Positions 40,322 through 56,867 of a DNA stretch of 64,000 nucleotides are shown here, in pieces (position 1 is the stretch's first letter; every line of letters begins with the position of its first letter). The notes beneath the pieces are model-generated. The model saw only the letters and a list, made by a program, of their open reading frames with translations. It was not told the origin of the DNA and made no database searches. Source of the DNA: Paludibacteraceae bacterium (GTDB taxonomy: Bacteria > Bacteroidota > Bacteroidia > Bacteroidales > Paludibacteraceae). Position numbers and translations under genes: made by a program. The stretch lies in the NCBI GenBank assembly GCA_024405875.1, contig JAKSOA010000008.1, positions 25,513 through 89,512 on the forward strand, given 5' to 3'.

Positions 40322-40344
40322 TACAACCTATATTTTACATTTAA

Positions 40345-41027: not shown

Positions 41028-43103
41028 TCAATCCCTAAGACAACGGACACTTTGTGCGCTGCTCTCGTAGTCGCTGCTCTCGATCAAGTATGAACTATCG
41101 TAACGCAAGAAGCGATAGTAAGCGCTGACACTGCTCTTAGCGTCTGACGACCAAAAGAGGCCCCACCTGCCTACACTGTCCACACTACTTCCGTTGGCGT
41201 AGCCAGCCGGCAAGCCTGAGAAACCGTAGTCATCGGTGCCGTTACCGCCACTGTACCATCCGCTTCTTGATTTCAGTTTTGCTCCAACATTTGGATAATC
41301 AATAGTTCCATCGCTGTCTGTCTTAGGTACTCCTCCTAACGCATTTGCAAGCGTGTTCCAATCAGCCCGGTTTGGCAGATACCAGCCGTTGGGGCAGATG
41401 CCCTGTCGTCTGCCACTGTAACTGCCAGTCTGATTCTGTGCTTGTGACTCAGTAGCGTATCCCATAGCGGCAGCCCAATTGTAGAGCAAGCCTAAATGCT
41501 CACGCTGTCCATTAGTTAAATATCCACTATATTCTGTGTTAGCATATCTGCCATCTATATAATATGGTGCGTATGTAGCACTACTTGATGTGTATATCTT
41601 AGCCCCTGCACGCTCACTTTGAGTGTCATATTTGGTGCATTGCAGGTTCTCTGCCATCCAGTATTGTGAGCCTATTTTTACTACAGGATATGTATGACCT
41701 TGGCAGTCAGTTACAGTCATTCCTGTAGATGACTGCATAGGGGTATTGTCCGTTACTGGTCTGCTGGAATTATTGGATAACTCCTGCTTGATTAAAGTAC
41801 CTGATAATGTGTATGTCTCATTTTCCCTAATGACAACCGTCTCGTTCTTATCTGCATAGCCTGCCTTAGTTATTTTCACATAATGCTCCCCTATCAGAAC
41901 CTTTGGCAACACTATTGGTGTTACACCCATATTTTTCCCATCAATATATATGGTTGCATCCATTGGGCGTACATCTATATTCATAATTCCGTATATTGGC
42001 AACGGTGCTGGCAGTTCCATTGTTTGTCCGTTCATTGACGGCTGAACGTTAAGCGGATAAGTCATACCCTTATGTCCCTTAAGTTTGGTTTCCACCACAT
42101 AACTGCCAGATGCCAACTCGTATTCTATGGTACCGTCACCTATTTTTTTATTGTTAATCCATATCTCCGCATTGTTTGCAACTTTAAATGTAAGTTTAGC
42201 AAAATCAGCCTGCATTACAGGGTTTACAGGTATGGTGGCGTTATCTGTTACATTTATCTGCGTTGTATATGTCTTGTACTTCTTTTGAATCACTTCCACC
42301 TTGTGGTTTCCGCTTGACACCTTGTGCTTAGTTACAGGCACCTGACCTATCTTTATGTTATCAACATAGACATCAGCACCTTTCATTATAGCGTTTGACT
42401 CTACACTTATCCATCCAAATGCTGGTATCAATGTTATGCTCACAGTCTGCTTCTCTGTCCCTAAATTCACACTGCCGCTTTTTTCGTGGTAGTCTTTGGC
42501 TGTAACTGTGTAGTCATATTTACCTATCGGCATCATTTTAATGGCAACACCATCATCACTCTGCCATATCTCTCCGTTAACACGTACAACAGCATCTTTA
42601 GGATTCAAGTTGAAAACGATATATTGACTGCTTATTTCAGGCTCATAATACATATATGCATTCTGCTTTTTTGCCGTGTATTTTACTGTAGTTTCATACA
42701 CAGTATTGCTTCTGAGTTGTTTACCAGATATAAGTTGTTTTCGTTCACAACCGTCTCCGCAGTCCACAAATATGGTCTTAGCCTCGTATGGAAACAGAAA
42801 CAGCATCTGATTGGATTTCTCCTTATAGGTTTTCTCCAAACGTTGTGTAGGGCAATTAAGCGTTACCTTGTTTTTTGCCTCCGCCGCATCTCCTTCAAGA
42901 TTCATACGGATTACCACAAACTTAAAATCCCCCGTCTCCGCATCTCCGTACTCTTTAATTTCAGATGCAAACTCATTTGAGTACGCCGCTATAACAGATG
43001 AATTTGGCACTTCCTTGAACTGCTCTACCACCTCCACACTCTGTGACATTGATAACTCAACAGCACTACAGACAAACAAAACAAACAACAATAGTCTTTT
43101 CAT
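41028..43103 (-). CDS. PEGA-repeat and FISUMP surface protein
   Basis: 691 residues from the ATG at 43103, with a signal peptide (to VELSMSQ). Residues 20-150 are an N-terminal domain shared with two other genes of this operon (VEVVEQFKEVPNSSVIAAYS, FKFVVIRMNLEGDAAEAK, FPYEAKTIFVDCGDGCE). About four PEGA-like beta repeats follow (170-450; GWISVESNAIMKGADVYVDN, GIMNIDVRPMDATIYIDGKN). The last 220 residues are a FISUMP domain (VTDCQGHTYPVVKIGSQYWM, GICPNGWYLPNRADW, FSGLPAGYANGSS, SAQSVRCLRD). PEGA repeats are thought to be surface or cell-wall binding modules. It is the last gene of the 13-gene sigma-led operon. Confidence 0.78.
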   Translation of the reverse strand: MKRLLLFVLFVCSAVELSMSQSVEVVEQFKEVPNSSVIAAYSNEFASEIKEYGDAETGDFKFVVIRMNLEGDAAEAKNKVTLNCPTQRLEKTYKEKSNQMLFLFPYEAKTIFVDCGDGCERKQLISGKQLRSNTVYETTVKYTAKKQNAYMYYEPEISSQYIVFNLNPKDAVVRVNGEIWQSDDGVAIKMMPIGKYDYTVTAKDYHEKSGSVNLGTEKQTVSITLIPAFGWISVESNAIMKGADVYVDNIKIGQVPVTKHKVSSGNHKVEVIQKKYKTYTTQINVTDNATIPVNPVMQADFAKLTFKVANNAEIWINNKKIGDGTIEYELASGSYVVETKLKGHKGMTYPLNVQPSMNGQTMELPAPLPIYGIMNIDVRPMDATIYIDGKNMGVTPIVLPKVLIGEHYVKITKAGYADKNETVVIRENETYTLSGTLIKQELSNNSSRPVTDNTPMQSSTGMTVTDCQGHTYPVVKIGSQYWMAENLQCTKYDTQSERAGAKIYTSSSATYAPYYIDGRYANTEYSGYLTNGQREHLGLLYNWAAAMGYATESQAQNQTGSYSGRRQGICPNGWYLPNRADWNTLANALGGVPKTDSDGTIDYPNVGAKLKSRSGWYSGGNGTDDYGFSGLPAGYANGSSVDSVGRWGLFWSSDAKSSVSAYYRFLRYDSSYLIESSDYESSAQSVRCLRD

Positions 43104-43142
43104 AATGATATTTAATAAAAATCTTAACAACTAACAACTCTT

Positions 43143-46085
43143 TTAATCCATAAGGCAGCGAACACTCATAGCATCGTTTTTGTCATAACCGAACCAGTAA
43201 AAGTTAGAATCATCATAACTCAATTGGCATTTGTATGAGCTTTCACTACTCTTAGCGTCTGAAGACCAAAATTCGCTATATTCACCTACAAAACTTACCC
43301 TGCTTCCATCAGCGTGACCAGCAGGCAAAGACGCAAACCCATAACTGTCTATTCCATTGCCTTTACTATACCAACCAGCTGTTGTTTTAAGATGCCTACC
43401 AGCAGTATCAAAGCCTTTGCTATCTGTTATTTCTATATATTCTTGAAGTGTCTGCCACTCTGCCCTGCTTGGCAAGTGCCACCCATTAGGGCAGATGCCC
43501 TGCCGTCTGCGACCGTAACTGCCAATCTGGTTCATTGCTTGAAGTTCTGAATAACCCATAGCCGCCGCCCAATTATATAAATAACCTAACTTAGCAATCT
43601 GTGCGTATGAAAGATTCCCAGCAGACTCAGACGAAGACCACTTGCTCTTGTCTGACGCATCTGTATAATATGGAGAATTAACAGCACTGCCCGACGTTGA
43701 TATTGTGGTTCTACCCTCTTTATATGCCTCTGATTTAGTGTCATACTTTGAGCAACGATAATTCTCTGCCATCCATATCTGAATGCCTATGGGAACGGCT
43801 GAGTATGTGTTGTCACATATATCCTTTGATAATGGTGCTCTACTAATTAAAATAGTTGCTTGCTTATTACTTGATGTTATAAAAGTAATTGTGGCATCAT
43901 CTGCTATAGTATCTGTATTTGGTGCAACGGTCACAGTTACTATTCCATTGCCACTACCATTTGTAGTTGATAGTGTAGTCCAAGTCTGGTTACTTGACAC
44001 AGTCCAGGTTGCATTAGATGTTATTGTTATGTTAAATGTGCCACCTGTTGACGCGATTTCTTTTGATATTGGGGTAACTGTTATGGTTTCTGAATTTTTC
44101 AAACAACGAACACTTTGCCCATATTTCTTATCGTTGTAATCACTGAACAGATATTGGGAAATGATATATCGATAGTAAGCGTAAATACTGTTGATTCCAT
44201 AGGGAGTGGTTGTCCAGAAATAAGCGTATTTTCCAACACTGCTCACACTACTCCCAAGAGCATAACCTGCAGGCAGAGCGGTAAAACTATAACTGTCTAA
44301 TCCATTATCGTTATTATACCAACCAGATATTGCCTTAAGGTGTTTACCAGCAGTGTTACTACCTTTGCCCTGTATTTTTTCTATATTATCTTGAAGCGTT
44401 TGCCACTCCTCGTCAGTTGGCATATGCCATCCATTAGGGCATATACCTTGAAGAATGTCGATGTGACTGTCAGTTTGGCTCTTGGCCTGTGATTCCGTGT
44501 ATCCCATAGCCGCTGCCCAGTTGTAGAGGTATCCTAACTTTTCCACCTGTGTGTCAGAGAGGTTTACTCCATATATTGTTTTACTATCACCATTCCACTT
44601 GCTCCTATCTGACGCATCGGTATAGTATGGAGAATATACAGCACTCTCTGAAGTTGGAATAGTGTATCTACCCTCTTTATATGCCTCTGACTCTGTATCA
44701 TACTTTGAACAACGGTAGTTTTCCGCCATCCATATCTGATTTTCTATTATTACTTGCGGATAGTCTGATGCATCACACTTCTCAACTTCCGCTCTTTTAA
44801 TTATAACAGTAGCCTGTTTATTGGTTGGTGTTGTAAATATAATCGTAGCGTCCACTGCTGTGGCATCCGTATTTGGTGCAATTGTCACAGTTACGGTCCC
44901 ATTACCGCCACCGCTTGCGGTTGAGAGCGTAGCCCAAGTTTGGTCACTTGACACAGTCCAAGATGTATTAGATGCTATTGTAATGTCAAATGTACCACCA
45001 GTTGATGCTATTTCTTTTGATGTTGGGGTAACGCTTATTGTCTCTTCTGAACTTTTCAAACAACGAACACTAAGGGCAAAGTACTTGTTGATGTCGGTTC
45101 TACTCAACAAAGAATTATTGGAATGCAAGTGGCAGTAGTAAGTGTAATCACTATTTTTAGAGTCTGACGACCAAAATGAGCCCCCCGCACCTCCTCCCGA
45201 TACATCGCTTCCGCTAACGTAACCAGCTGGCACAGCAGAAAAACCATAACTATCCATTCCGTTGCCATTATTGAGCCAACCAGATGTTGTCTTAAGGTGT
45301 TTACCAGCCGTATCATTGCCTTTACTATCTGTCTGTTCTATATAGTCTTGAAGCGTCAGCCACTCATTATCTGTTGGAATATGCCATCCGTTGGGACAAA
45401 TACCCTGACGATTGCCACTGTAACCGCCAGTCTGACTTTTTGCCTGAGATTCTGTGTATCCCATAGCCGCAGCCCAGTTGTAATAGTATCCGTATCCGCT
45501 ACCAGTGCCGTCCTTGTAGTATGGAGCAACAACTGCATCTTTCTCTGATGTCGGAATAGTATATAATCCTTCCCTATAGGCTTCAGACTGAGTATCATAT
45601 TTAGCACTATGCATATTCTCAGTCATCCAATATTGATTACCTATTTTAACAAATCCATAACTATTACCATCATAATCACGCACATTTGCTTCTGTAACAA
45701 ATTCATATACAACATTATAATCGTAATATGAATGCATACTATCTTTTAATCTAATTCTATAATAGTACTTCGTATTGTCCTGCAAACCATATATAGAGCA
45801 CTTATATTCATTTGACTCCGAGGTGGTTCTTTTCGCTTCACAAGCATTGGCAATGTCATACTTGGCATTCACATTATCAGAAAAACATATACCTATACTT
45901 TCGCAAGAAAAAGAGGAATTTTTTACGGTACAATATATGTCAACACTTGATGCACTTGGAACAGCATAGCACTCTACAACCGCTTCAGCAATAATAACTG
46001 GATCTCCATCCTTTTTACACGAAATGAATGCCATTGCTATTAACACAAAAACTAATATTCTATTTTTACTTCTTTCAAAATACAT
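43143..46085 (-). CDS. Large lipoprotein with three FISUMP and two BACON domains
   Basis: 980 residues. The lipobox AFISC gives C23. A fibronectin-like beta domain (30-130) precedes FISUMP-1 (about 135-345). BACON-1 (about 350-435; SVTPTSKEIASTGGTFDITI, SWTVSSDQTWATLSTASGGG), FISUMP-2 (about 435-655), BACON-2 (about 658-742) and FISUMP-3 (about 745-980) then alternate. The repeats are close in sequence (GYLYNWAAAMGYTESQAKSQ and GICPNGWH in all), which shows duplication within the gene. BACON domains are linked to carbohydrate or mucin binding in Bacteroidetes. The start overlaps the preceding gene by eleven bases. It is predicted to be a surface adhesin or binding protein. Confidence 0.8.
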   Translation of the reverse strand: MYFERSKNRILVFVLIAMAFISCKKDGDPVIIAEAVVECYAVPSASSVDIYCTVKNSSFSCESIGICFSDNVNAKYDIANACEAKRTTSESNEYKCSIYGLQDNTKYYYRIRLKDSMHSYYDYNVVYEFVTEANVRDYDGNSYGFVKIGNQYWMTENMHSAKYDTQSEAYREGLYTIPTSEKDAVVAPYYKDGTGSGYGYYYNWAAAMGYTESQAKSQTGGYSGNRQGICPNGWHIPTDNEWLTLQDYIEQTDSKGNDTAGKHLKTTSGWLNNGNGMDSYGFSAVPAGYVSGSDVSGGGAGGSFWSSDSKNSDYTYYCHLHSNNSLLSRTDINKYFALSVRCLKSSEETISVTPTSKEIASTGGTFDITIASNTSWTVSSDQTWATLSTASGGGNGTVTVTIAPNTDATAVDATIIFTTPTNKQATVIIKRAEVEKCDASDYPQVIIENQIWMAENYRCSKYDTESEAYKEGRYTIPTSESAVYSPYYTDASDRSKWNGDSKTIYGVNLSDTQVEKLGYLYNWAAAMGYTESQAKSQTDSHIDILQGICPNGWHMPTDEEWQTLQDNIEKIQGKGSNTAGKHLKAISGWYNNDNGLDSYSFTALPAGYALGSSVSSVGKYAYFWTTTPYGINSIYAYYRYIISQYLFSDYNDKKYGQSVRCLKNSETITVTPISKEIASTGGTFNITITSNATWTVSSNQTWTTLSTTNGSGNGIVTVTVAPNTDTIADDATITFITSSNKQATILISRAPLSKDICDNTYSAVPIGIQIWMAENYRCSKYDTKSEAYKEGRTTISTSGSAVNSPYYTDASDKSKWSSSESAGNLSYAQIAKLGYLYNWAAAMGYSELQAMNQIGSYGRRRQGICPNGWHLPSRAEWQTLQEYIEITDSKGFDTAGRHLKTTAGWYSKGNGIDSYGFASLPAGHADGSRVSFVGEYSEFWSSDAKSSESSYKCQLSYDDSNFYWFGYDKNDAMSVRCLMD

Positions 46086-47496
46086 ATCCTATTCCTATTT
46101 CAAAATCAACATATTTAAAAACAATTGTACTTACACTGACTGAAACAGACACGTGACTTGTTGTATTATAGAGTAAGCCTATTTCAGCGGCAACACCTTG
46201 ATATGAATAATCATTAACTTTGCACCAATATTGTTTCCCCTCAGATTCCTCAGCCTTAACCTGCCATAAAGTTCGCCTCTGCCCATAGCCAACTCCAATG
46301 AGAGCGTTGAGATTACATCCAAGTCTAACCGCTGCACCACCTGTGACTATAAAGTGAGGTTTTGAGACTTTTCCGCTAAAAATGGGAATACCGCCACCTT
46401 CTGTTTGACCATTCTTATTACAGGTACCCACCACATCTGAAATATGAGCAAAATCAAACGAACTACGGAATTTTACATACCAACCGGCATGCTTTACCAT
46501 ACCTACCATAAATCCACCACTCCATTGGTTTGACGGAGAATACGCTGCATTAAGCAATATAAAAGTCCTAAAATGAGGAATCTCCTTAAGTTTGATTTTA
46601 GGCAATGTAGTCAATTCGTTCTCCCTTATTGCAATATTCATAGTAGAAGAATTCATATAGTGCTTTTTTGAGATAAGAGCCCTGTAGTCTCCTACTCTTA
46701 ACTTCATATCTTTTATTGGAGTATGATATGTAGAAACTCCCTCTGTGCTATTTGAATATAATGTTACAGTAGCCTTATTTGGAACAGATTCCACTGAAAG
46801 GACCCCGTAAATTTCACGTAATTTTGGAAACTCTATTGATTTAACATTCTCATCTATGTTGTAACTTATAATGGTGTCTGCGAAACCCATACGTGAAAAC
46901 ACAAATTGGTAAGTGGTGTACAACCTAAGTTTCAGACTATCTGTTTTAACATCTGTATAGGAAAAATTCTGTTCCTCATTTTCGTGTATTCTGTATTTTA
47001 TGGCATCAGTTTTTTTGTTATAGTTTATAAAAACACTGGTGTTGGATTGTAGTACTTTATCTGATGGAATATATTTCACTGTTGCTTCATATACAGTATT
47101 GTACTTAAGCCGTTTCCCGTCAGCAAGCAATTTCTTTTCACAACCGTCACCACATTCTACATATATTGTTTTTGCCTCGTACGGAAAAAGAAACAACATC
47201 TGATTAGGTCTCTCCTTATATGTTTTTACAAGTTTTTGGGTAGGACAATAAAGCGTTACCCTGTGTTTTGCTTCCGCAGCGTCTCCCTCTAGATTCATTC
47301 GGATTACCACAAACTTAAAATCCCCTGTCTCCGTATCTCCGTACTCTCTAATTTCTGATGCAAACTCACTTGAGTATGCCGCTATAACAGATGAATTCTG
47401 AACTTCCTTGAACTGCTCTACCACCTCCACACTCTGTGCCATTGATAATAAAGTTACACTTAGTGCAAACAAAACTAAAGGTAAATCTCTTCTCAT
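46075..47496 (-). CDS. PEGA-like protein with C-terminal beta-barrel-like part
   Basis: 473 residues with a signal peptide (to LLSMAQ). The N-terminal 130 residues are nearly identical in pattern to those of the genes at 41028 and 47529 (SVEVVEQFKEVQNSSVIAAY). A middle PEGA-like region (about 200-300; GVLSVESVPNKATVTLYSNS, HYMNSSTMNIAIRENE) follows. The final 165 residues (HFRTFILLNAAYSPSNQWSG ... VGYGQRRTLW ... VDFEIGIGYVF) look like an outer-membrane beta-barrel strand series with a terminal phenylalanine. It could anchor the complex in the outer membrane. It replaces the FISUMP end found in its paralogues. Confidence 0.65.
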   Translation of the reverse strand: MRRDLPLVLFALSVTLLSMAQSVEVVEQFKEVQNSSVIAAYSSEFASEIREYGDTETGDFKFVVIRMNLEGDAAEAKHRVTLYCPTQKLVKTYKERPNQMLFLFPYEAKTIYVECGDGCEKKLLADGKRLKYNTVYEATVKYIPSDKVLQSNTSVFINYNKKTDAIKYRIHENEEQNFSYTDVKTDSLKLRLYTTYQFVFSRMGFADTIISYNIDENVKSIEFPKLREIYGVLSVESVPNKATVTLYSNSTEGVSTYHTPIKDMKLRVGDYRALISKKHYMNSSTMNIAIRENELTTLPKIKLKEIPHFRTFILLNAAYSPSNQWSGGFMVGMVKHAGWYVKFRSSFDFAHISDVVGTCNKNGQTEGGGIPIFSGKVSKPHFIVTGGAAVRLGCNLNALIGVGYGQRRTLWQVKAEESEGKQYWCKVNDYSYQGVAAEIGLLYNTTSHVSVSVSVSTIVFKYVDFEIGIGYVF

Positions 47497-47528
47497 AACA
47501 AAATCATATATCTAACGATGACAAAAAA

Positions 47529-48893
47529 TCAATCCATTACACAACGGACACCCACTAAATTATCTTTACTTAATTCGGTTCCTTCAATAGTTTCAAGGGG
47601 ATCAATAATACGTATGAATGTCAAATCCTCATCCGATGCATCACATGTCCATAGATAACATAGATAACCCACGCCATTAACCTCATCTCCATTTGAATAA
47701 CCAGAAGGTAATGCAGAAAATCCACACTTATTATCACCACTACCAACATCTTCATACCAACCAATACTAGATGTCAAATGTTGACCAGCAACTTCTTCCC
47801 CTCCGCAAGAGTTAACCAATTCGACGTATTCAGATCTACTAGGAATATGCCATCCATTAGGGCATATTCCCTGTCTTTTCCCGATATATTTACCATTTTG
47901 TTGTTTTGTTTCATTTTCACTATAACCCATAGCAGCCGACCAATTATATAGAAGTCCCAATCTAGCTCGTTTTGAATTGCTCAATTCATTATATCCAGCA
48001 GAATGTCTACCATCAATATAACCCTTAGATGCTTGTAACACAATTCCTGCTTTTTCACTTTGTGTATCATACTTTGTACATTGCATATTTTCAGAAATCC
48101 AATACTGCTTACCAATTTTTACGACTGGATACACATATCCTTGACAATCCGTTACAGTTAAATCCTCACTATTAGCATTTACAATACTTAAATGAGGGAA
48201 ATGTATAACACTTACATTTCTATCAATTTTATATGCTATTATTGAATCTTTGTAAAGTTTATCTTTTTTACTAAACTTAAAATCAAAAACCTTACCCATC
48301 TCCAACTCAATTTCATCTGTTGACAATGGGAAAAAACCAATGCTCTCGTCTCCGTGCTCACGAAATGACACCTCCTCTCCTGCATTTTTATCATATATGA
48401 CAGGTATTAACTTATAATTTTTATTGACATCTGATGATAATTTTGCCGTGTATTTTACTGTAGTTTCATACACAGTATTGCTTCCGAGTTGTTTGCCAGA
48501 TATAAGAACTTTGCGTTCACAACCGTCTCCACAGTCCACAAATATGGTCTTAGCCTCGTAGGGGAACAGGAATAGCATCTGATTGGACTTTTCTTTATAG
48601 GTTTTCTCCAAACGCTGCGTAGGGCAATTAAGAGTGACATATTTTTTTGCCTCTGCCACATCTCCCTCAAGATTCATGCGGATTACCACAAACTTAAAAT
48701 CCCCCGTCTCTTCATCTCCATACTCTTTAATTTCAGTTGAAAACTCACTTGAGTATGCCGCTATAACAGATGAATTTGAAACCTCTGTAAATGTTTTGGA
48801 TATTTCTATTGTTTGAGCATGCAACTCTGACATTACAAAAAATAACCCTATCACAGCAAACCATCCAATAATTTTAATATGCATAGTACTCAT
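47529..48893 (-). CDS. Shared-N-domain and FISUMP surface protein
   Basis: 454 residues with a signal peptide (to SELHAQ). The N-terminal domain (25-150; FTEVSNSSVIAAYSSEFSTE, FKFVVIRMNLEGDVAEAK, IFVDCGDGCERKVL) is shared with the genes at 41028 and 46075. There is no run of PEGA repeats; a short beta region leads to a FISUMP domain (about 245-454; LTVTDCQGYVYPVVKIGKQY, GICPNGWHIPSRSEYVEL, GFSALPSGYSNGDEV, LVGVRCVMD). The role is unknown; membership of the same operon and the common N-domain suggest that the three proteins bind the same partner. Confidence 0.7.
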   Translation of the reverse strand: MSTMHIKIIGWFAVIGLFFVMSELHAQTIEISKTFTEVSNSSVIAAYSSEFSTEIKEYGDEETGDFKFVVIRMNLEGDVAEAKKYVTLNCPTQRLEKTYKEKSNQMLFLFPYEAKTIFVDCGDGCERKVLISGKQLGSNTVYETTVKYTAKLSSDVNKNYKLIPVIYDKNAGEEVSFREHGDESIGFFPLSTDEIELEMGKVFDFKFSKKDKLYKDSIIAYKIDRNVSVIHFPHLSIVNANSEDLTVTDCQGYVYPVVKIGKQYWISENMQCTKYDTQSEKAGIVLQASKGYIDGRHSAGYNELSNSKRARLGLLYNWSAAMGYSENETKQQNGKYIGKRQGICPNGWHIPSRSEYVELVNSCGGEEVAGQHLTSSIGWYEDVGSGDNKCGFSALPSGYSNGDEVNGVGYLCYLWTCDASDEDLTFIRIIDPLETIEGTELSKDNLVGVRCVMD

Positions 48894-48895
48894 AG

Positions 48896-49816
48896 TCAGA
48901 AATTTTCACTTGACTCCATAAATTTTGTATAATCACTCATATCAAAAGGTTTGACATTATCATCACTTGGCTGCCATACACGGAATATAATTTTAGGTGC
49001 CGTGGCTTCTGTAATGTCCAAGCAGAAAAATAAATTTGATTTTGCCGAGAAATTGGCAGACTTAAAATCAGTTACAAAATTTATTCCATATAAATACATA
49101 TCATCGGTAATGGATATTGAAATATCGTGAAGTGTTACATCTATCCATCCTTTTGATTCAAATCCATTTTGTAGTTTTTCTAAATACTCATCAATAGAAT
49201 GTTTCCTATAATAAAAACTATTTATTGCTATTTGATTTAAATCAGGATTATTCTCATCCTCCACTTGGGCTTTACTTCCAATTAACATTACTGCATTTGT
49301 AGAAAACAGGTCATCAATGTATTGCATCTGTCGTAATGAATATGCCGTTTGATATATCTCCATAAAATTAATTATTGCCAACCTATGCTCTTTTGGGATA
49401 AGCATATCTGTCATTATGTCTTTACTAGACTCCCTGTCTATGGCAAACTGAATTCTTGAAATTTTCCCTTTATTGTTAAACACCAATGTCATCCTTCGCG
49501 AAAATGAATTAAGAGAATCAGGGCTTAATTGCAAAGGAATAAAGAAGCACAACACATCTTCTCCAAATTCTATAAAATGACATCTAACAGAATCCACTAC
49601 ATTTACTTTAGTGGTTTCTGTCAAATCACTAATCATTTTAAAACCATCGGCTGTGAATAGAGATGACACGCTATATACGTCATTTGCATTGATTGCAACA
49701 ATGACACTATCTACAATATGCTCATACTGAATATCTCTTTCTGTATTTGAGCTGCAATAAGCAGAATTGCAAATAAACAAAAGCAATCCTACAAAGATAA
49801 ATTTAAAATTTTTCAT
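48896..49816 (-). CDS. Secreted paralogue of the C-terminal half of the large LPP20-like protein
   Basis: 306 residues with a signal peptide (to NSAYCSS). It aligns along its length with roughly the last 260 residues of the next gene upstream. Shared landmarks are SSLFTADGF/RGLFTVAGY, IPLQLS/IPMEFT, LAIINFMEIYQTAYSLRQMQYI/LSIINFMENYKTAFSLKDIKYI, and a final KIIFRVWQP/KILVRTWEA. The INFMExYxTAxSLxxxxYI helix followed by LFSTNAVMLIG resembles an NTF2/SnoaL-like cone fold. It probably arose by tandem partial duplication. The lipobox is weak; it may be periplasmic. Function unknown. Confidence 0.6.
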   Translation of the reverse strand: MKNFKFIFVGLLLFICNSAYCSSNTERDIQYEHIVDSVIVAINANDVYSVSSLFTADGFKMISDLTETTKVNVVDSVRCHFIEFGEDVLCFFIPLQLSPDSLNSFSRRMTLVFNNKGKISRIQFAIDRESSKDIMTDMLIPKEHRLAIINFMEIYQTAYSLRQMQYIDDLFSTNAVMLIGSKAQVEDENNPDLNQIAINSFYYRKHSIDEYLEKLQNGFESKGWIDVTLHDISISITDDMYLYGINFVTDFKSANFSAKSNLFFCLDITEATAPKIIFRVWQPSDDNVKPFDMSDYTKFMESSENF

Positions 49817-49817
49817 A

Positions 49818-52277
49818 TTAATAAACTCCTGTATCTTTATAATATTGGTCTAAATTGTATGGTGCACGCTCTCCCGTTTCAGCCTCCCAAGTACGCACTA
49901 GTATCTTGGGATGTTCTGTTGTAGCATCTACATACAGGAACAAATATCCTCTATCTCCATAATTGGATGACATATATTCCTGAAAAAGATTGATGGCAAA
50001 CATATTTTCGTTTTTATTCATTTCAACTTTTGTTGAACCAAATTCAAGTTTAATCCAATCTTTTGATTTAAAAGAAGAAGCAAGGTTATTTATATAAGTT
50101 TTTTTGTCATAACGCTCAAAATCAAATCTACCATTTACATTTAAGCGGTTCTGCTCTGCACTTATACCTTGTGAAACTAATTTTCTACCTACTATTATTA
50201 TTGCGTTATCAGAGAAAATAGATTCTATATACTTGATATCCTTTAAACTGAATGCGGTTTTATAGTTCTCCATAAAATTAATGATTGAAAGCCTTGCCGA
50301 TTCAGAAATTCTTTTGTCACCCAATATATCATTTTGAGACCTTGCTTCAAGCGTAAACTGGACACCATCAATATATTTATCAGCATTAAATGTGAATGCT
50401 ACATTTTCACGAGTTTTGTTATTTGATGAAAAAGTAAATTCCATCGGGATTGAACGACATTGTATTTCGTTACCTATCCTAAAGTACGCCAATCCGTCTG
50501 TTACTATTACTTTTGCCTTGCCAAATTTTATTAACTTGTCAAACTGATTATATCCCGCCACTGTAAATAAACCTCTTACAGATGAATAGTTATTATTTTT
50601 AATAGCATTGCAAACTTGAAGCACTTTAGCCTCGCATGCCTTCTTTTCTGCATCAGAAACAACACTTGTTTCAGTAAAACTATTAACATACGTATTCTTT
50701 ACATTAGATATAGCGGATGTTGCCTTATTGGGGTTGGCATTAAAAACAGAACTGTTCAATGCCGTTGATATTGACGCATCATATTTAATCTTTTTAGAGT
50801 ATTTGCCCATGTTGTTCTTAACCTCCACGTCATATCCTCCCTCATCTGTATCTGAGCGGTAATCAATTTCTATAGGCAACTCTTGTGGCTTGTAGCCCAA
50901 AAGGTCTATTGTCGCTACACCATCACGCACCTGATACCAATCACTCCAATTCTGACCATCAGAATATCTGAATCTTAATTTTTTAATTGGAGCACTCATA
51001 GTTCTTCTACGTGTTTTCCTATTATAAGTAAAACTTAACCTCACTCTTGTAGGGTCATTGGGCATAGTACCATCTACGGTAACTGAGATTCCCTCTATAA
51101 TGGTTTTTATTTCATTATCCAAAAATGTGCGTGGAACTATAACAATGGAATCACCCGATGGAGTATGAATTGTATATTCAAATGATTCCTTTGTCTCCAA
51201 GTCGTAAAGAAGCAACTGAGCTCCATATAAATAACGTAGAGCATCTCCTATCTTGAAATCACGTTCATATAGTTTCCCTGTTTTAATGAATTCCTTAATT
51301 TTATTCTCCCTGACTTGAGTATAATTACCAGATAAACTGTTATACTTGTTTTCTACTTTGGATTTAATGTCTTTACTATCTTCAAAAATAGACTCAATGC
51401 TCCTATCTGTTGCAAATGCATGTAAAAACTTAATTTTAGGTTCAACCCTTTTTAAAGTATCTTGTGCAATATCCAACGCCGCTTTTGCATTGGCAAGATT
51501 TTTTGTTTTAATATCTCTATCAGCCTTACTTATATATGTTTCAGCAACATCCATTGCAGACTCTATATCAAGTTTATACTGTTTAACAACAGCATCACTT
51601 TCAATATACGCAACAGCACAACATGCTTCTTTGTTGGCATTGGCATCTGTATGAATTAATGGTAGTAACATTCCATCTAAATGCACGTCTTGTACTAATT
51701 TATTTTTCGCCTTTTCTTGAAGACTATTTTTTAATGCATTAACTTCATCTTTCTTTTGTAAGTCATCCTGTAAAACAACCGAGAAATATTCGTCTGTTTC
51801 ATATTCTTCCCATTCATCAGGAACAACATCAACGACATCATTACCATCAGTGCCAGACGTATAGATTTTCATTTTTGAATCCTCCCAGTCAGGGTCAATA
51901 ACACCAGCTACCGCTACTTGATATAATAAAAATACCTTATAGCCTCCGTTTTTCAACACTTTAGTATATTGTGCAACTCTGTGAATAGGTATATCAAAAT
52001 CAAAAGATTGTGAATCAGAAATAGAGCCACTATTCACCAATTCATCAACTTGTTTTGAACTCATAGGAGCACCATACATGGCTATCGCCCATTTATATAC
52101 CAATCCTATTGCCTTGTTTACGGCTTCTTCTTCAGAAGCACCCGTAGCGTGTTCCACTACAAACAAGTAATCCTTCTTGCCGTGTGTGGTAGGAGTATGC
52201 GTTGTCCATCCTGGTTTAACCGCATATCCCCAAAATGTTAGCAAACAACATAACACAGATAGTAAAATTTTTTTCAT
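49818..52277 (-). CDS. Large secreted protein: LPP20-like N-terminus and NTF2-like C-terminus
   Basis: 819 residues from the ATG at 52277, with a signal peptide (to WGYAVK). Residues 20-130 (PGWTTHTPTTHGKKDYLFVV, GASEEEAVNKAIGLVYKWAI) follow the LPP20/FlgT-N pattern of envelope proteins: W...P... then f-vG-a with an alanine-rich helix. A long helical region (220-340) with coiled-coil character and a beta-rich middle (390-530) follow. The final 260 residues (about 555-815) are the NTF2-like domain shared with the downstream gene at 48896. It may be a scaffold for the smaller LPP20-like proteins encoded just upstream. It is separated from the upstream gene by two bases. Confidence 0.6.
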   Translation of the reverse strand: MKKILLSVLCCLLTFWGYAVKPGWTTHTPTTHGKKDYLFVVEHATGASEEEAVNKAIGLVYKWAIAMYGAPMSSKQVDELVNSGSISDSQSFDFDIPIHRVAQYTKVLKNGGYKVFLLYQVAVAGVIDPDWEDSKMKIYTSGTDGNDVVDVVPDEWEEYETDEYFSVVLQDDLQKKDEVNALKNSLQEKAKNKLVQDVHLDGMLLPLIHTDANANKEACCAVAYIESDAVVKQYKLDIESAMDVAETYISKADRDIKTKNLANAKAALDIAQDTLKRVEPKIKFLHAFATDRSIESIFEDSKDIKSKVENKYNSLSGNYTQVRENKIKEFIKTGKLYERDFKIGDALRYLYGAQLLLYDLETKESFEYTIHTPSGDSIVIVPRTFLDNEIKTIIEGISVTVDGTMPNDPTRVRLSFTYNRKTRRRTMSAPIKKLRFRYSDGQNWSDWYQVRDGVATIDLLGYKPQELPIEIDYRSDTDEGGYDVEVKNNMGKYSKKIKYDASISTALNSSVFNANPNKATSAISNVKNTYVNSFTETSVVSDAEKKACEAKVLQVCNAIKNNNYSSVRGLFTVAGYNQFDKLIKFGKAKVIVTDGLAYFRIGNEIQCRSIPMEFTFSSNNKTRENVAFTFNADKYIDGVQFTLEARSQNDILGDKRISESARLSIINFMENYKTAFSLKDIKYIESIFSDNAIIIVGRKLVSQGISAEQNRLNVNGRFDFERYDKKTYINNLASSFKSKDWIKLEFGSTKVEMNKNENMFAINLFQEYMSSNYGDRGYLFLYVDATTEHPKILVRTWEAETGERAPYNLDQYYKDTGVY

Positions 52278-52279
52278 AT

Positions 52280-52870
52280 TCAATTTTCTTTAAAACGTTT
52301 CTCCATACGTTTCCGATATTCTTGTTCATTGAAACCTATACGGTCTTTCTCTTCCTGTGTAAGATTTTCTCCAATTTCATTAGAAATTCTTTGAACAGTT
52401 TCTGACTTGGAAATCTTAATGCCTACATAGCAAGTCATATTAACTCTGAACTTGTCAAGTGAATATTTTGTACACAATTGCTTTGTCTCATTAACTACCA
52501 CATCAATAACTCTGTCTCCTGCACTTTGCATTTTGCGTTCAATGTCATTTCCTGCATTATTCCCAAATGATGCAGAATACTCAGAAACCATACCTTTGTA
52601 AGTATGTTTCATTTTTAACCTTATTAAATCTTGTGCGGCAAGCAAAGCATTCTTTTGCAATTCTTGTTTCTGATTGGCAGGACCCTCAAAGATACCTGTT
52701 GCCGCAAATTCCTCATCTGTATCATACATTGTGCAAGGTGCCTCAAAAGAATCCCCAAATATATTTTCTTTGTTATCTTGAACCTCCTGCTTTTTTGTTT
52801 TGGCACTGCCTACCATACACGGAAACAATGCCAACAAGAAACAAACTATTAACTGTTTTTTTATTATCAT
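52280..52870 (-). CDS. LPP20-like small secreted protein (paralogue 3)
   Basis: 196 residues with a signal peptide (to MVGSAKT). The core GDSFEAPCTMYDTDEEFAAT, then an alanine-rich helix (ELQKNALLAAQDLIRLKMKH), GNDIERKMQSAGDRVIDVVV and a conserved tail (RIGFNEQEYRKRMEKRF) are shared with the genes at 52867 and 54282. LPP20-type proteins take the place of a helix-packed beta-sheet found in FlgT and some outer-membrane lipoproteins. The start overlaps the stop of the previous gene (ATGA), so the two are translationally coupled. Function unknown. Confidence 0.68.
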   Translation of the reverse strand: MIIKKQLIVCFLLALFPCMVGSAKTKKQEVQDNKENIFGDSFEAPCTMYDTDEEFAATGIFEGPANQKQELQKNALLAAQDLIRLKMKHTYKGMVSEYSASFGNNAGNDIERKMQSAGDRVIDVVVNETKQLCTKYSLDKFRVNMTCYVGIKISKSETVQRISNEIGENLTQEEKDRIGFNEQEYRKRMEKRFKEN

Positions 52871-53457
52871 TTTCCCTCTTTATATTGTTTGAAACGTTCT
52901 TCCATCTGTTTTCTATATTCCTGTTCATTAAAACCTATACGGTCTTTTTCATCTTGGGAAAGCATTTCTTCTACTTCTTGTGAGATTTTTTGAGCCGTCT
53001 CTTTTTTAGATATTATTACAGATGTGTAACACGTAATGTGTCCTTTATCATCAACCTCAGACCATTTTACACAAGATTGCTTTGAATCATTAATAATTTG
53101 GTCTATCACTCTATCTCCAGCCGCTTCCATTTTACGTTCAATATCATTTCCTGCATTTTTACCGTATGAACTTGAGTATTCTGAAATCATACCATTATAT
53201 GAGTGTTTCATTTTGATACGGATTAATTCCTGTGCCGCCAGAACCGCACCTTTTTGAACCTCTTGTTTTTGACTACTTGTACCTTCAAAAATACCTGTTG
53301 CAGCAAACTCTTCATCTGTGTCATAAACTTGACAGGGTGCTTCAAATGTTTCTCCAAAAGGATTTTTTGGCTTTGGTTGTTCTACCTTCTTTTTAGCATC
53401 ACATACTACAAATGGAATAACTACCAACATTATTCCAAATAAAATTTTCTTTTTCAT
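52867..53457 (-). CDS. LPP20-like small secreted protein (paralogue 2)
   Basis: 196 residues. The signal sequence ends in PFVVCDAKK, which could be a lipobox. FGETFEAPCQVYDTDEEFAA, the alanine-rich helix (EVQKGAVLAAQELIRIKMKH), GNDIERKMEAAGDRVIDQII, a cysteine-containing KQSCVKWSEVDDKGHITCYT segment and the tail RIGFNEQEYRKQMEERFKQY place it with the genes at 52280 and 54282. All three keep two cysteines around the last beta strands. It overlaps the next gene by four bases. Function unknown. Confidence 0.68.
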   Translation of the reverse strand: MKKKILFGIMLVVIPFVVCDAKKKVEQPKPKNPFGETFEAPCQVYDTDEEFAATGIFEGTSSQKQEVQKGAVLAAQELIRIKMKHSYNGMISEYSSSYGKNAGNDIERKMEAAGDRVIDQIINDSKQSCVKWSEVDDKGHITCYTSVIISKKETAQKISQEVEEMLSQDEKDRIGFNEQEYRKQMEERFKQYKEGK

Positions 53458-53492
53458 ATTTTTAAAAGTTTCTTAAAGTTATCTGTTTATTA

Positions 53493-54275
53493 TTAAAAAT
53501 CACATCGCAACACTATGCCTGCCCCATTATATAAGTCAAAGGATGGCAATAATTTAAAATCAAAAGCCAACTCTTCTGTTGTTATATGCTTTGCCCCTGG
53601 AGCGACTATGCCGTCTATCAAACTATACAAATACATTGCAACAGTAAAGGCTATGCATCCATATCCAACATTGGCACATGTAGTTGCTTTTGAAGTATTA
53701 TCCAATGACAAATAATTTGATTTCATTGCAAAACAAGTTGCAATTCCACCAATACCCAACGCCGTCCCAGCAATCATAACGCCTCCCTTAACCTTGCTAC
53801 CTTTATATATCTGAGCCATACCAGGTACAAATACTCTGCCAGAAAATGGATATTTATCTGTTAACGCAACATTTTCCATCTTATAAGTTGGATTTTTAGC
53901 CGTTTGGACAAGCAAATACACTTTATATTGTCCCGGACCAATGTGATCTGTATATTCATCTATTATTCTTGATGAAACTATCAAATTATCTGCGCCTAGA
54001 ATAGTATTTGATTTATTGTCCTTTCCATAATTGACCGTCGATTCCACTCCAGTAGTCAAACTTCTTCGCTGAATTATCTCTTTTGATGCTCTCTCTTTTG
54101 CTATTTTATAGTCATATCCTTCTCCTGATACAACCTCTATATATGAATTAGAGAGTGAGTTAAAGTAACCATTAATCCAAAATGGAGCATCATTATCTTC
54201 CGCACAAGCACTTTGTCCACCTGCAAAGCAGCAGATGAACAAAGTAAGCATAGCATAAAATTTAGACTTATGCAT
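53493..54275 (-). CDS. LPP20-like membrane protein with DUF5683-like C-terminus
   Basis: 260 residues with a signal peptide (to GQSACAE). Residues 25-140 follow the LPP20 pattern (APFWINGYFNSLSNSYIEVV, GEGYDYKIAKERASKEII). After LTDKYPFSGRVFVPGMAQIYKG comes a pair of hydrophobic segments (GGVMIAGTALGIGGIATCFA and GYGCIAFTVAMYLYSLIDGI), like the PGxGQ-type DUF5683 membrane proteins of Bacteroidetes. It could anchor the LPP20-like group in a membrane. It lies between two LPP20-like genes, with gaps of 6 and 35 bases. Confidence 0.58.
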   Translation of the reverse strand: MHKSKFYAMLTLFICCFAGGQSACAEDNDAPFWINGYFNSLSNSYIEVVSGEGYDYKIAKERASKEIIQRRSLTTGVESTVNYGKDNKSNTILGADNLIVSSRIIDEYTDHIGPGQYKVYLLVQTAKNPTYKMENVALTDKYPFSGRVFVPGMAQIYKGSKVKGGVMIAGTALGIGGIATCFAMKSNYLSLDNTSKATTCANVGYGCIAFTVAMYLYSLIDGIVAPGAKHITTEELAFDFKLLPSFDLYNGAGIVLRCDF

Positions 54276-54281
54276 CTATTA

Positions 54282-54884
54282 TTATTTTTTATTCTCTTTG
54301 TATTGTTTAAATCGATCTTCCATTTGTTTGCGATACTCCTGTTCATTGAAACCGATGCGGTCTTTTTCCTCTTGCGTTAATTTGTCTGCTACCTCACTTG
54401 CTATTTGAGCAGCAGCCTTTGCTTTTGGTATTAAAATGGCTATATAACAAGTTATATGACCATCCGCTCCTATTTTTGACCATTTTAAACAAGACGCAGA
54501 AGTGTTGTTCACAAACACGTCTATGATTTTATCTCCAGCACTTGTCATTTTACGCTCTATGTCATTGCCACTGTTATTACCTACAGACGCAGAATATTCA
54601 CTAACCATACCTTTGTAAGCAGAAGCCATCTTATTGCGAATAAGGTCTTGTGCGTTAAGAAGTGCGTTTTTCTGCACCTCTCCAAGTTGCTTACTAGAAC
54701 CTATAAATGTTCCTGTCGCCGCAAAATTCTCTTCAGTGTCATAAATTGTACATGGCATTTCATAAGACTCTCCAAACGGATTTTCGTCAGGACTTGTTAC
54801 TGTTGTAGCACTTTTTGATGATTTGCAACTTGCAAATGTCAAGGCTGTAAATGCAGCCAAACTCAAAAAAACAATCTTTTTCAT
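54282..54884 (-). CDS. LPP20-like lipoprotein (paralogue 1)
   Basis: 200 residues with a clear lipobox (TFASC, C20). The core FGESYEMPCTIYDTEENFAA, helix EVQKNALLNAQDLIRNKMAS, GNDIERKMTSAGDKIIDVFV and tail RIGFNEQEYRKQMEDRFKQY match the genes at 52280 and 52867. Its leader and first ten codons (MKKIVFLSLA) are duplicated from those of the next gene upstream, as described under the 98-base repeat. It is probably anchored in the outer membrane. Function unknown. Confidence 0.7.
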   Translation of the reverse strand: MKKIVFLSLAAFTALTFASCKSSKSATTVTSPDENPFGESYEMPCTIYDTEENFAATGTFIGSSKQLGEVQKNALLNAQDLIRNKMASAYKGMVSEYSASVGNNSGNDIERKMTSAGDKIIDVFVNNTSASCLKWSKIGADGHITCYIAILIPKAKAAAQIASEVADKLTQEEKDRIGFNEQEYRKQMEDRFKQYKENKK

Positions 54885-54953
54885 AACTCTATAAATTTTA
54901 AATTTGTTAATATTTGCCTACTCATTTTTGGCGTTTCGGCTTACTCCGTTACT
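54856..54953 (-). repeat. 98-base direct repeat (copy A), leader and signal codons of the LPP20-like gene
   Basis: It matches 55291-55387 closely from GTAACGGAGTAAGCCGAAAC to the codons of MKKIVFLSLA. Copy A lies in front of the 200-residue gene. Only two small length changes and a few substitutions separate the copies. Confidence 0.88.
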
Positions 54954-54956
54954 ATA

Positions 54957-55319
54957 TTATTTCTGTTCTACTGTATCATTTTTAGGCATACGCACTGCCA
55001 TATAGCAAGTGCAACGTCCAGATTTATCTGTTCCGAATTTTTGACATACGATTTCTACTTCTTTTATATATTCCTTTCCGCTTTTCCTATGCAAATCTTC
55101 ATTAGCCGACATATGTGCTTGCATAATCGCATCATTAAATGTTCTACCTTGGCCTACTCCAAACCCACAATAATATTCAGGTGTGTCATTTGACTCTGAC
55201 ATACAAGGCATTTCAAATTCCTGTTGAGTTTTCTCTTGTGCCTGTTTCTTAACAGATTTCTTGGCTGAGCATAACGTGCACACCAGCAACGCCAAACTCA
55301 AAAAAACAATCTTTTTCAT
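54957..55319 (-). CDS. Short LPP20-like protein (truncated paralogue)
   Basis: 120 residues starting MKKIVFLSLALLVCTLCSAK, then EFEMPCMSESNDTPEYYCGF, GVGQGRTFNDAIMQAHMSAN and GRCTCYMAVRMPKND. It keeps the beta core and alanine-containing helix of the larger paralogues but lacks the long GNDIERKM helix and the C-terminal RIGFNEQEYRKQM tail, so it is about 80 residues shorter. It may be a minimal family member rather than a broken gene, because the frame is intact and the cysteines are kept. It follows the membrane protein gene at 55375. Confidence 0.62.
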   Translation of the reverse strand: MKKIVFLSLALLVCTLCSAKKSVKKQAQEKTQQEFEMPCMSESNDTPEYYCGFGVGQGRTFNDAIMQAHMSANEDLHRKSGKEYIKEVEIVCQKFGTDKSGRCTCYMAVRMPKNDTVEQK

Positions 55320-55387
55320 AATTGTATAAAATTTAAATTTGTTAATTTTGCCTACTCACTTTTGGCGTTTCGGCTTACTCCGTTACT
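55291..55387 (-). repeat. 98-base direct repeat (copy B), probably the original
   Basis: This copy includes the last codons (LVTE and stop) of the membrane protein gene at 55375, so it sits in its natural context. Copy A carries the same gene-end sequence as a relic, which shows the direction of duplication. Confidence 0.85.
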
Positions 55388-55959
55388 AATTTTATAATAT
55401 TTGATAAACTAAATCCGTTGCTCTCTTTAAGTAGTTCATCTGCACTGGAAGCGTATACACCACCTCTATCCCTTATTTCACGCAGCATTTCATTCGCTTT
55501 AATGACATCGCCACGTTTCATTGTGCAGACGGCTTGCAGATACTCGGCATCCTCCAACAATTCTCTGTCCATATCCTTATAGTAATAGCCAACCAAGTCA
55601 TCGGGGTATGTGCGGTTACTTAACTCATCTATGAAATTAGAGATGGAGTCATCTGCCTGACGCAGCATATCGCCCTCTTGCTTAAGCATCTGGTGAAAAT
55701 TGTTTATACGCACCACGTCAACATCGCCCCTTACGGTCTCCACCTCAAATTGGTTAATGGCTTCAGTGCTCAGGTTATACATTTGATTTTTTATGCCACA
55801 CCACCCGAATAGTCCTACAAAGAGTATGCACGCCGCCATAGATGATACGCCAATCCATAATGCACGCACCTGTTTCTGCCTCCTCACTCTCTCTCTTAAC
55901 CGCTTGAGCATTGCCTGCGATTTGAGTTCCCACATTATTTCTTCTTCTAAGTTTGTCAT
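55375..55959 (-). CDS. One-pass membrane protein after the ECF sigma gene (candidate anti-sigma factor)
   Basis: 194 residues from the ATG at 55959. A cytoplasmic basic helix (MTNLEEEIMWELKSQAMLKRLRERVRRQKQ) leads into one membrane segment (ALWIGVSSMAACILFVGLFG) and an extracytoplasmic part with TPR-like helices (DAEYLQAVCTMKRGDVIKANEMLREIRDRG). It is 52 bases after the sigma gene. The topology, with a short cytoplasmic sigma-contact region and a periplasmic sensor tail, is that of an anti-sigma factor, although no known anti-sigma motif is visible. RseP at 17.4 kb could process it, but that is conjecture. Confidence 0.6.
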   Translation of the reverse strand: MTNLEEEIMWELKSQAMLKRLRERVRRQKQVRALWIGVSSMAACILFVGLFGWCGIKNQMYNLSTEAINQFEVETVRGDVDVVRINNFHQMLKQEGDMLRQADDSISNFIDELSNRTYPDDLVGYYYKDMDRELLEDAEYLQAVCTMKRGDVIKANEMLREIRDRGGVYASSADELLKESNGFSLSNIIKLVTE

Positions 55960-56011
55960 TCTGCCTGTTAATGCTTTGTTTTTATTAAAAAGTAAATGGG
56001 ATTTGAAAATT

Positions 56012-56566
56012 TTATAGGAGTGTTTGGTTATACAACTCCTCAAAGCGTTTCATACACTTGTATTTCTGTGCCTTAGCGGTATCAGCGTTAGGCATACCAA
56101 GTTTAGCGGCTATGGTTGCCATCTCATAACCAAAAGTGTAGAATAGGTCAAGCAGGTTACGGCACCGGGCATCAAGTTTCTCAAGTATCTCACGCACCGC
56201 CGCTCTTACGGGGCTCTCTCCGTAATCTATTATATCAACACCTGCTTCATCATCACCATCTTTTATTTGATAGAATTGAGCCTCTTGCCTCTTGCCTAAC
56301 AAATGTGCTGCCTTGCGTTTGCCTACGCCTATAAGGTATGTGAGTATTGTGGAGTCTAAATTTGCTTGTGTTAGTTTTCCACGACCTACATTCTCCCATA
56401 CCACAAGTATGGAGTCATTGTAAATTTCATCTACCTCCTCAGCGGTCAGGAGGCTGTACTGGTGTGATATAAAACTTGTAAACCTGTAACGGCACAAGTC
56501 AAACAGTTTGAGTGTCGCTCTCTCAGGGTCTAATGAGTACTCTGAGATGTAGTCAAAGTCATTCAT
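56012..56566 (-). CDS. ECF-type RNA polymerase sigma factor
   Basis: 184 residues from the ATG at 56566. Region 2 is in residues 20-75 (LFDLCRYRFTSFISHQYSLL ... EIYNDSILVVWENV). Region 4 is in 120-180 (LDARCRNLLDLFYTFGYEMATIAAKLGMPNADTAKAQKYKC), with the helix-turn-helix intact. It directs RNA polymerase to a small regulon, probably including its own 13-gene operon. No STN-domain receptor or FecR-type gene is beside it, so it is not the usual TonB-linked Bacteroidetes ECF. A long structured leader precedes it. Confidence 0.9.
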   Translation of the reverse strand: MNDFDYISEYSLDPERATLKLFDLCRYRFTSFISHQYSLLTAEEVDEIYNDSILVVWENVGRGKLTQANLDSTILTYLIGVGKRKAAHLLGKRQEAQFYQIKDGDDEAGVDIIDYGESPVRAAVREILEKLDARCRNLLDLFYTFGYEMATIAAKLGMPNADTAKAQKYKCMKRFEELYNQTLL

Positions 56567-56569
56567 CAA

Positions 56570-56830
56570 GTATCTGGTTTGGCATAGGCATAAAAAACAA
56601 AACGTGGAATCTGACTTATTGTCAGTCCACGTACTGAGGCTCTTGCATGCCTATGCCACCAGACAGACAACGCCAGACCCACGCCAATATGAAAACACTA
56701 CACCCAACATTGGGTGTATGCATAATCATACCAACATAGTCATCTACCGTTGCTTTGTAAAGATGGCATTTGAAAGTTTGCAAGATTTCAGTACGTCTTT
56801 CCAAAGCGCTTGTAAACGCCTATATGTATT
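56570..56830 (-). promoter_or_regulatory. Long structured leader of the sigma factor gene
   Basis: About 260 bases from the predicted start site to the sigma gene. From the start it has: a perfect 9-base palindrome TACACCCAA-CA-TTGGGTGTA (56718-56699); an outer pair GGCATAGGCAT (56657-56647) and ATGCCTATGCC (56591-56581); and inside it a terminator-like hairpin, ACGTGGA-CTGAC-AATAA-GTCAG-AT-TCCACGT (56632-56602), followed by TTTGTTTTTT. A 35-codon open frame (56729-56622) ends within the hairpin. This layout suggests attenuation or RNA-based control; it could also be the end of a small RNA. Confidence 0.5.
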
Positions 56831-56836
56831 TGGCTA

Positions 56837-56867
56837 CAAATGTAATAACTTATTTGGTAAATACAAC
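56837..56867 (-). promoter_or_regulatory. Promoter of the sigma-led operon
   Basis: On the minus strand GTTG (56867-56864), a 19-base spacer and TACATTTG (56844-56837), a housekeeping-type promoter. An additional ECF-type promoter cannot be recognised without known targets. Confidence 0.6.

Follow-up and report, generated by a model that had tools for sequence, protein, structure and literature searches.

FecR/SusC-type ECF systems of the Bacteroidetes place an ECF sigma factor and its one-pass partner ahead of surface genes. A different use of an ECF sigma factor is found in CASP, or Craspase, whose parts are the TPR-CHAT protein Csx29, the inhibitor Csx30 and the ECF factor CASP-sigma. According to PMC10028731, the TPR-CHAT protease cuts the ECF sigma inhibitor, and the arrangement is likened there to DegS/RseA. 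ECF-caspase neighbourhoods and DGR-caspase systems have already been published for other architectures (PMC8195603 and PMC7159879), and targeting of Fib_succ_major by DGRs has been reported for human microbiomes (PMC4159848).

Here we describe a locus within a stretch of 64,000 nucleotides (the window) from a Paludibacteraceae bacterium, the genome of which is a draft of 1.85 Mb that is 79% complete. In our preferred reading, to which we assign slightly less than an even chance, it is a locus for recognition at the envelope, under ECF control, that combines a fixed chassis with changing lectin-type heads. The caspase-sigma-partner core, the DGR kinship of the FISUMP heads and the presence of a DGR in a related locus are absent from the reading given in an earlier note on the same DNA, an interpretation that our results support in part.

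The locus and its counterparts within the genus

Thirteen genes run along the minus strand from 56566 down to 41028, with the sigma factor first and a PEGA/FISUMP protein last (Table 1). The tight spacing that the earlier note claimed for this run is borne out by its 12 junctions, which range from an 11-base overlap to a 72-base gap, as is the claim of mostly secreted products: when read by eye, 12 of the 13 have a signal peptide or membrane segment, the sigma factor being the exception. The same note had reported no TonB receptor or FecR protein, and a profile scan of the operon proteins gave no match to a TonB receptor, SusD or FecR. The locus extends past the 13 genes, and the secreted caspase and transglutaminase-like gene belong to it. 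Their mention as downstream neighbours was meaningful, with both kept at the same end in G137, a genome of the same genus in which the locus lies on a contig of 22,384 bases (C81).

Table 1. Features of the locus in the window (positions are those of the window)
Feature	Position	Strand	Basis
Structured repeat-like leader ahead of sigma gene	56575..56810	-	z -6.9; 85% to G137
ECF-type sigma factor	56012..56566	-	TIGR02937 E 2.5e-7, below cut-off
One-pass membrane protein, anti-sigma candidate	55375..55959	-	One TM segment near residue 33; 65% to G137
lppA, secreted, weakly LPP20-like	54957..55319	-	24% to lppB, E 4e-6
lppB, LPP20-like lipoprotein	54282..54884	-	55-58% to lppD and lppE; lipobox by eye
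lppC, distant LPP20-like, with hydrophobic part	53493..54275	-	Profile made in this analysis and by eye
lppD, LPP20-like	52867..53457	-	
lppE, LPP20-like	52280..52870	-	60% to lppD
lppN, LPP20-like part and NTF2-like C-terminus	49818..52277	-	Residues 323-815 match L072 and L105 proteins
NTF2-like secreted protein	48896..49816	-	29% to lppN C-terminus, E 2e-39
Shared N-domain and FISUMP protein	47529..48893	-	PF09603 E 1e-25
Shared N-domain, PEGA (weak), possible C-terminal beta-barrel	46075..47496	-	PEGA E 0.004, OMP_b-brl E 0.15, both below cut-off
Three FISUMP and two BACON domains	43143..46085	-	Domain matches
Shared N-domain, three PEGA, one FISUMP	41028..43103	-	Domain matches
Inserted toxin-antitoxin pair (YafQ)	40272..40888	+	PF15738 90 bits for 40616-40888; antitoxin by position
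Hairpin with T-run ahead of caspase	39988..40025	-	Kept in G137
Secreted metacaspase-type caspase	39051..39938	-	PF00656 54 bits; SGHG and DACHSG kept
Secreted transglutaminase-like protein	37544..39046	-	78% to G137; label by eye

The first gene product matches TIGR02937 with 30.5 bits, where the curated cut-off is 42.9, and the sigma genes at the equivalent place in six relatives match the same ECF model with E values from 5e-8 to 4e-14, two of the six over cut-off. These matches, the window's own below cut-off, support the claim that a probable ECF-type sigma factor stands with a single-pass partner at the head of the operon. By hydropathy only, the partner has a single transmembrane helix that separates a short inner segment from a long outer one; it has no Pfam match over cut-off and is the partner of the sigma factor in other loci also. 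Because only around 33 cytoplasmic residues are kept in the window, the cytoplasmic part being longer in three relatives, sigma binding by this protein is a candidate function only, and it is the weakest link of the mechanism proposed below.

A loose match to the Bacteroidetes promoter pattern occurs at 56866-56837 and has a positional equivalent in G137, and a second loose match before the caspase occurs in the window without a G137 counterpart. No word of 8 or more bases common to the sigma and caspase upstream regions and kept in both species was found. The leader ahead of the sigma gene matches no Rfam family at the Rfam cut-off and is a candidate repeat element or attenuator. Stretches resembling it are present in 19 of 150 family genomes, including the window's own, where they are mostly partial and lie beside varied genes; one precedes a sigma-like gene (L247).

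The FISUMP assignments within the window are PF09603 or TIGR02145 matches over cut-off. None of the window proteins matched PF02169, the LPP20 family of Pfam, even at a limit of E 1; this family is over cut-off in a homologue at 6316-8217 of L105. An Lpp20-type fold is suggested and plausible. The part of lppN listed in Table 1 matches the L072 protein at E 2e-44 and the L105 protein at E 6e-42. The predicted structure of the N-domain/FISUMP protein was too poor (pLDDT 57), and a fold search on the model was left unused. Outside the locus, a cobalamin riboswitch at 4689-4877 on the plus strand precedes genes that by eye encode a surface protein and a TonB-type receptor.

The G137 locus opens with the sigma factor and one-pass protein. 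Behind them come four LPP20-like genes, a pair whose ends look Lcl-like by eye, three FISUMP genes and, again by eye, a RhuM-like pair, before the caspase and transglutaminase-like gene close the series. Between these two genomes of one genus, the ends are conserved at 65-78% identity (sigma factor 77%, one-pass protein 65%, caspase 78%, transglutaminase-like protein 78%) and the middle is rebuilt, with 36-62% in the FISUMP parts and 47% in lppA. The shared N-domain, PEGA and BACON parts had no blastp match in the G137 locus at E 1e-3 and are therefore not core. The expectation that relatives would keep the same gene order thus holds for the ends but not for these three components.

The stretch that separates the surface genes from the caspase holds the toxin-antitoxin pair in the window and the RhuM-like genes in G137, and is therefore read as an insertion site. 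RhuM-like genes (by eye) again adjoin a related locus at 6158-17415 of L262 (G131), with LPP20-like and DUF4384-like (by eye) genes, a transglutaminase-like gene, a large caspase, a FISUMP-like head (by eye) and a barrel-like protein. The hairpin with a T-run before the caspase is present in both the window species and G137, and was unflagged by a terminator scan. Given this kept hairpin and the gap of 1,089 bases, with its insertion, that separates the surface genes from the caspase, the caspase and transglutaminase-like gene may form a second transcript.

A census of 16 genomes of the genus found the transglutaminase-like gene in four (one partial) and the caspase in three; the caspase and a full-length transglutaminase-like gene occur together in two, the window's and G137. 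FISUMP domains number 38, 36, 31, 29, 17 and 16 in six of these genomes and no more than 4 in each of the other ten.

Two modules and the loci that join them

The secreted window caspase is a metacaspase-type member of C14, having a family match (54 bits against a PF00656 cut-off of 21.4) and the catalytic His and Cys in its two kept motifs; its PDB matches are metacaspase structures (E 1e-14). At E 1e-20, matches to a caspase profile occurred in 31 of the 295 genomes searched from the order. Thirty caspase loci, the window's own included, were compared, and an ECF-type sigma factor with a one-pass partner lay within 1.5 kb of 4 of the 10 stand-alone caspases (361 aa or less) versus none of the 20 multi-domain ones (Fisher p 0.008, with the stand-alone/multi-domain split set after viewing the list). 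A search with the sigma factor added two more trios, ordered sigma, partner, caspase, TPR-CHAT in G149 and caspase, sigma, partner, TPR-CHAT in G077. TPR-CHAT genes adjoin five caspase-sigma-partner loci, the CHAT domain being recognised by Pfam in L010, L071 and L074 and by a profile built from those three in L013 and L073. A caspase, an ECF sigma factor and a one-pass partner, often with a TPR-CHAT protease, make up the first module. The multi-domain caspase of L067 has an anti-sigma-like neighbour without a sigma factor. Divergent caspase neighbours in L078, L080 and L081, considered as sigma factors, had no sigma-family match and were left uncounted.

The transglutaminase-like label is a Cys-His-Asp reading made by eye; the protein has no Pfam match at E 1, and the sole PDB chain at E 0.1 is unrelated. 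At E 1e-10, a search of 393 genomes from the order found it in 89. Its surroundings were read in the best 80 of 426 confirmed stretches in named genomes, several of which end at contig edges and two of which (L083 and L154) possibly duplicate G137 and G131, using profiles whose seeds came from the window and a few relatives, including L072. Within these best 80, same-strand runs contain LPP20-like genes in 22 cases, a caspase in 17, PEGA in 14, NTF2-like genes in 13, lectin-type heads in 7 and a sigma factor in 1, with none of the sought partners in 38. At 1 in 80 runs, a sigma factor is seldom seen in the transglutaminase loci of other genomes, so that it looks like an added controller.

A frequent form of these loci, seen in Parabacteroides acidifaciens (L105), whose PEGA protein has a barrel-like C-terminal part below the Pfam cut-off, and in Bacteroides muris (L135), consists of LPP20-like, LPP20/NTF2, PEGA and transglutaminase-like genes. 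In Mediterranea massiliensis (L121) the LPP20/NTF2, PEGA and transglutaminase-like genes are found without the leading LPP20-like gene. This second module is widespread in Bacteroidales. In L103, from Paludibacteraceae, two proteins with the window N-domain, PEGA and FGE adjoin the transglutaminase-like gene; the N-domain matches at E 8e-29 with a profile made from window proteins only, and Pfam was run on the first of the two proteins. No reverse transcriptase was found in the genome of L103 (G540). Radical-SAM-like genes (by eye) lie upstream of the transglutaminase-like gene at 6100-7200 of L086 and 8400-9512 of L089.

Both modules, which come together in the window, also meet in L072, from a genome (G259) of another family of the order. 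Along one strand it carries an FGE-type gene, an HRDC gene, a reverse transcriptase and a template, followed by a PEGA/FGE-sulfatase protein, an LPP20/NTF2 protein (E 2e-44 to window lppN), a caspase whose match crosses one stop codon, a sigma factor, its partner, a secreted protein of 228 residues and the transglutaminase-like gene. The reverse transcriptase contains LPIGNLTSQ, presumably a DGR mark. Template and variable region 1 differ at 12 of 90 bases, all 12 at template A, and variable region 2 has 14 of 14 mismatches at template A. This locus sets both modules beside a complete DGR that edits two heads. In L162, from Prevotellaceae UBA3646, PEGA/FGE heads share a locus with a caspase, sigma factor, partner and transglutaminase-like gene, and a search of the genome concerned (G559) revealed no reverse transcriptase. 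A shared N-domain in L072 and L162 was rejected, as it matched only with the L072-seeded profile, and the window-only profile matches L103 alone.

FISUMP heads and DGR editing

Searched against the PDB at E 0.01, the profile of the window head proteins matched only TvpA (2y3c, E 7e-8), the variable protein of a DGR. In G557, a frame over the DGR template matches the FISUMP profile, and the variable protein aligns with FISUMP ends. Across the host genome, which has 36 FISUMP matches in its 1.85 Mb, FISUMP domains are most variable at the columns of the G557-template Asn residues, with an entropy of 2.92 versus 1.77 bits (0 of 20,000 permutations; 26 domains, 25 distinct). By sequence, the FISUMP heads are related to DGR variable proteins.

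Copying of AAY codons with adenine mutation is expected to leave NNY-only columns as its trace. In seven dispersed host FISUMP domains on five contigs, NNY-only codons make up 15 of 22 variable C-terminal columns compared with 0 of 17 upstream (p 7e-6), and the third base is mostly a single one; the footprint families were chosen by eye, from 20 loci fetched of the 36 domain matches. FISUMP domains with this DGR-like codon footprint lie on contigs C4, C10, C23, C30 and C34 of G000 (L021, L022, L023, L030, L037, L038). For the four FISUMP domains of the window heads the corresponding figures are 12 of 26 versus 8 of 44 upstream (p 0.016), with the third base not fixed. With so weak a footprint, the window FISUMP genes were rejected as recent DGR targets.

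A reverse transcriptase was detected in 12 of the 30 genome handles searched, two of which (G439 and G553) are identical places. On the flanks read, G259 alone has one within the transglutaminase locus. In L072, L223 and L233, a template paired with an A-specific variable region lies close to a reverse transcriptase. In G563, a DGR adjoins LPP20-like genes on a contig other than that of L089, and its variable protein has CsgG-like and FGE domains, with 11 of 11 mismatches at A. Within the window's genus, the DGR of G141 edits a FISUMP-head-type protein (Lcl_C below cut-off), with 13 mismatches at A and 97% identity at the 34 non-A positions. By eye, the end of a secreted protein at 8291-9706 on the minus strand of the window resembles that of the edited G141 protein.

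Positions 36001-58000 of the window contain no template/variable-region pair. The host reverse transcriptase near 103700 of contig C1 in G000 (L039, L082), which by eye lies between phage-like and cas1/cas2-like genes, was rejected as the FISUMP editor: the surrounding 18 kb has no TR/VR pair, and four FISUMP ends gave no A-tolerant match there or in 14 other stretches. A suspected DGR beside the L121 cassette was also rejected, as the 19.9 kb past the variable-looking gene read as prophage and contain no TR/VR pair.

Interpretation and relation to known systems

The chassis, consisting of the sigma factor, one-pass partner, metacaspase and transglutaminase-like protein, is conserved and encloses a secreted set of LPP20-like, NTF2-like and PEGA/FISUMP proteins that is not the same in the two genomes of the genus. 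LPP20-like lipoproteins and the PEGA protein with the possible barrel would form an outer-membrane base, from which FISUMP heads of C-type-lectin type would bind ligands outside, acting as either sensors or cargo. The sigma factor would be held at the inner membrane by the one-pass protein. Upon ligand binding or damage, the periplasmic caspase may cut the outer part of the one-pass protein, or a partner, freeing the sigma factor for the production of the surface genes, after which the transglutaminase-like enzyme would cross-link or trim the surface layer. Relief of sigma restraint by a caspase is modelled on Csx29/Csx30/CASP-sigma and DegS/RseA. Variety among the heads could arise from gene copies in the window and from a DGR in some relatives.

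This reading draws on the ends being in order in G137 around a middle that differs in gene number and type, on the recurrence of the caspase-sigma-partner trio, and on the joining of parts in single loci in L072 and L162. It draws further on the N-domain and heads of L103, the DGR edits of L072, the TvpA match and the G141 DGR. It is weakened by the presence of both enzymes in just 2 of 16 genus genomes, by the absence of a sigma factor from 79 of the best 80 runs, by the cytoplasmic part of about 33 residues, by the L067 case and by the weak DGR footprint in the window, as well as by the hairpin and gap hinting at a second transcript and by the L072 and L162 heads having no shared N-domain.

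The locus could instead be an ordinary adhesin or matrix operon, in which sigma-regulated surface and fibre proteins serve gut attachment, the enzymes process and cross-link them, and the heads have no sensing role. LPP20, PEGA, BACON and FISUMP are all common surface parts, a cassette without sigma factor or caspase is widespread, and secreted enzymes lie beside surface genes in most of the forms read. We nevertheless regard this as somewhat unlikely, since it leaves unexplained both the recurring trio and a head-editing DGR inside the same locus in L072. A role in anti-phage or inter-bacterial conflict, with heads that recognise invaders or rivals, a caspase (CHAT elsewhere) that kills or seals the cell and a sigma factor that only raises expression, would suit the changing middle and the insertions, which fit an arms race; caspases, FGS domains, DGR and ECF sigma factors also co-occur in conflict systems described in PMC7159879 and PMC8195603. 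The secretion of the locus proteins, the lack of a MoxR-vWA or STAND core among the 15 scanned and PADLOC matches limited to the caspase domain and a TPR make this improbable.

Chance adjacency of three units that share no function, namely a small operon of sigma factor and partner, an operon of surface genes, and the caspase paired with the transglutaminase-like gene, seems very unlikely, even with the sigma factor so rare beside the cassette (1 of the best 80 runs) and the hairpin with a T-run allowing separate transcripts: two species of the genus have the same ends, and the same parts are together in L072 and L162 of other families. The recognition locus that we prefer could also belong to a surface recognise-and-respond system of gut Bacteroidales, though this extension is itself unlikely. 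Lectin-fold receptors, diversified by DGR or copying and mounted on LPP20/PEGA bases, would be wired via a periplasmic metacaspase and a membrane anti-sigma protein to an ECF sigma factor that renews the receptors, and the window would be a DGR-free form drawing on a DGR-seeded FISUMP stock elsewhere in the genome.

The locus ties together ECF signalling, bacterial caspases, LPP20/PEGA surface proteins and DGR-type receptor diversification, which are usually separate subjects of study. It also offers a way to test the role of DGR-diversified surface lectins in gut Bacteroidales, as in G259 the lectins share a locus with a readable output, sigma-driven transcription. In the open-access literature searched, no paper was found that describes the extracytoplasmic form seen in Bacteroidales, in which LPP20, PEGA and FISUMP genes accompany a transglutaminase-like gene.

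Like the FecR/SusC ECF systems, the window operon has an ECF sigma factor with a one-pass partner preceding surface genes; it differs in that its proteins match no TonB receptor, SusD or FecR. It shares with the DGR targets bearing Fib_succ_major or DUF1566 heads, as presented in PMC4159848, the same head domain ending a predicted lipoprotein, but no template/variable-region pair was found in positions 36001-58000 of the window. The DGR/caspase conflict systems of PMC7159879 and PMC8195603 likewise have caspases, C-type-lectin (FGS) domains and DGR, and one group also has an ECF sigma factor and a TPR gene; they centre on MoxR-vWA, STAND or EACC, whereas the window locus proteins are secreted. 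Neither Cas7-11 nor TPR-CHAT was found among the 15 window locus proteins scanned. Like CASP/Craspase (PMC10028731), the locus combines an ECF sigma factor with a protease of caspase fold and a candidate inhibitor, but its protease is a secreted one, its candidate inhibitor is a membrane-spanning protein and its cargo consists of surface proteins. If the caspase does cut the anti-sigma protein, the locus would be an extracytoplasmic counterpart of this CRISPR-linked protease-sigma switch.
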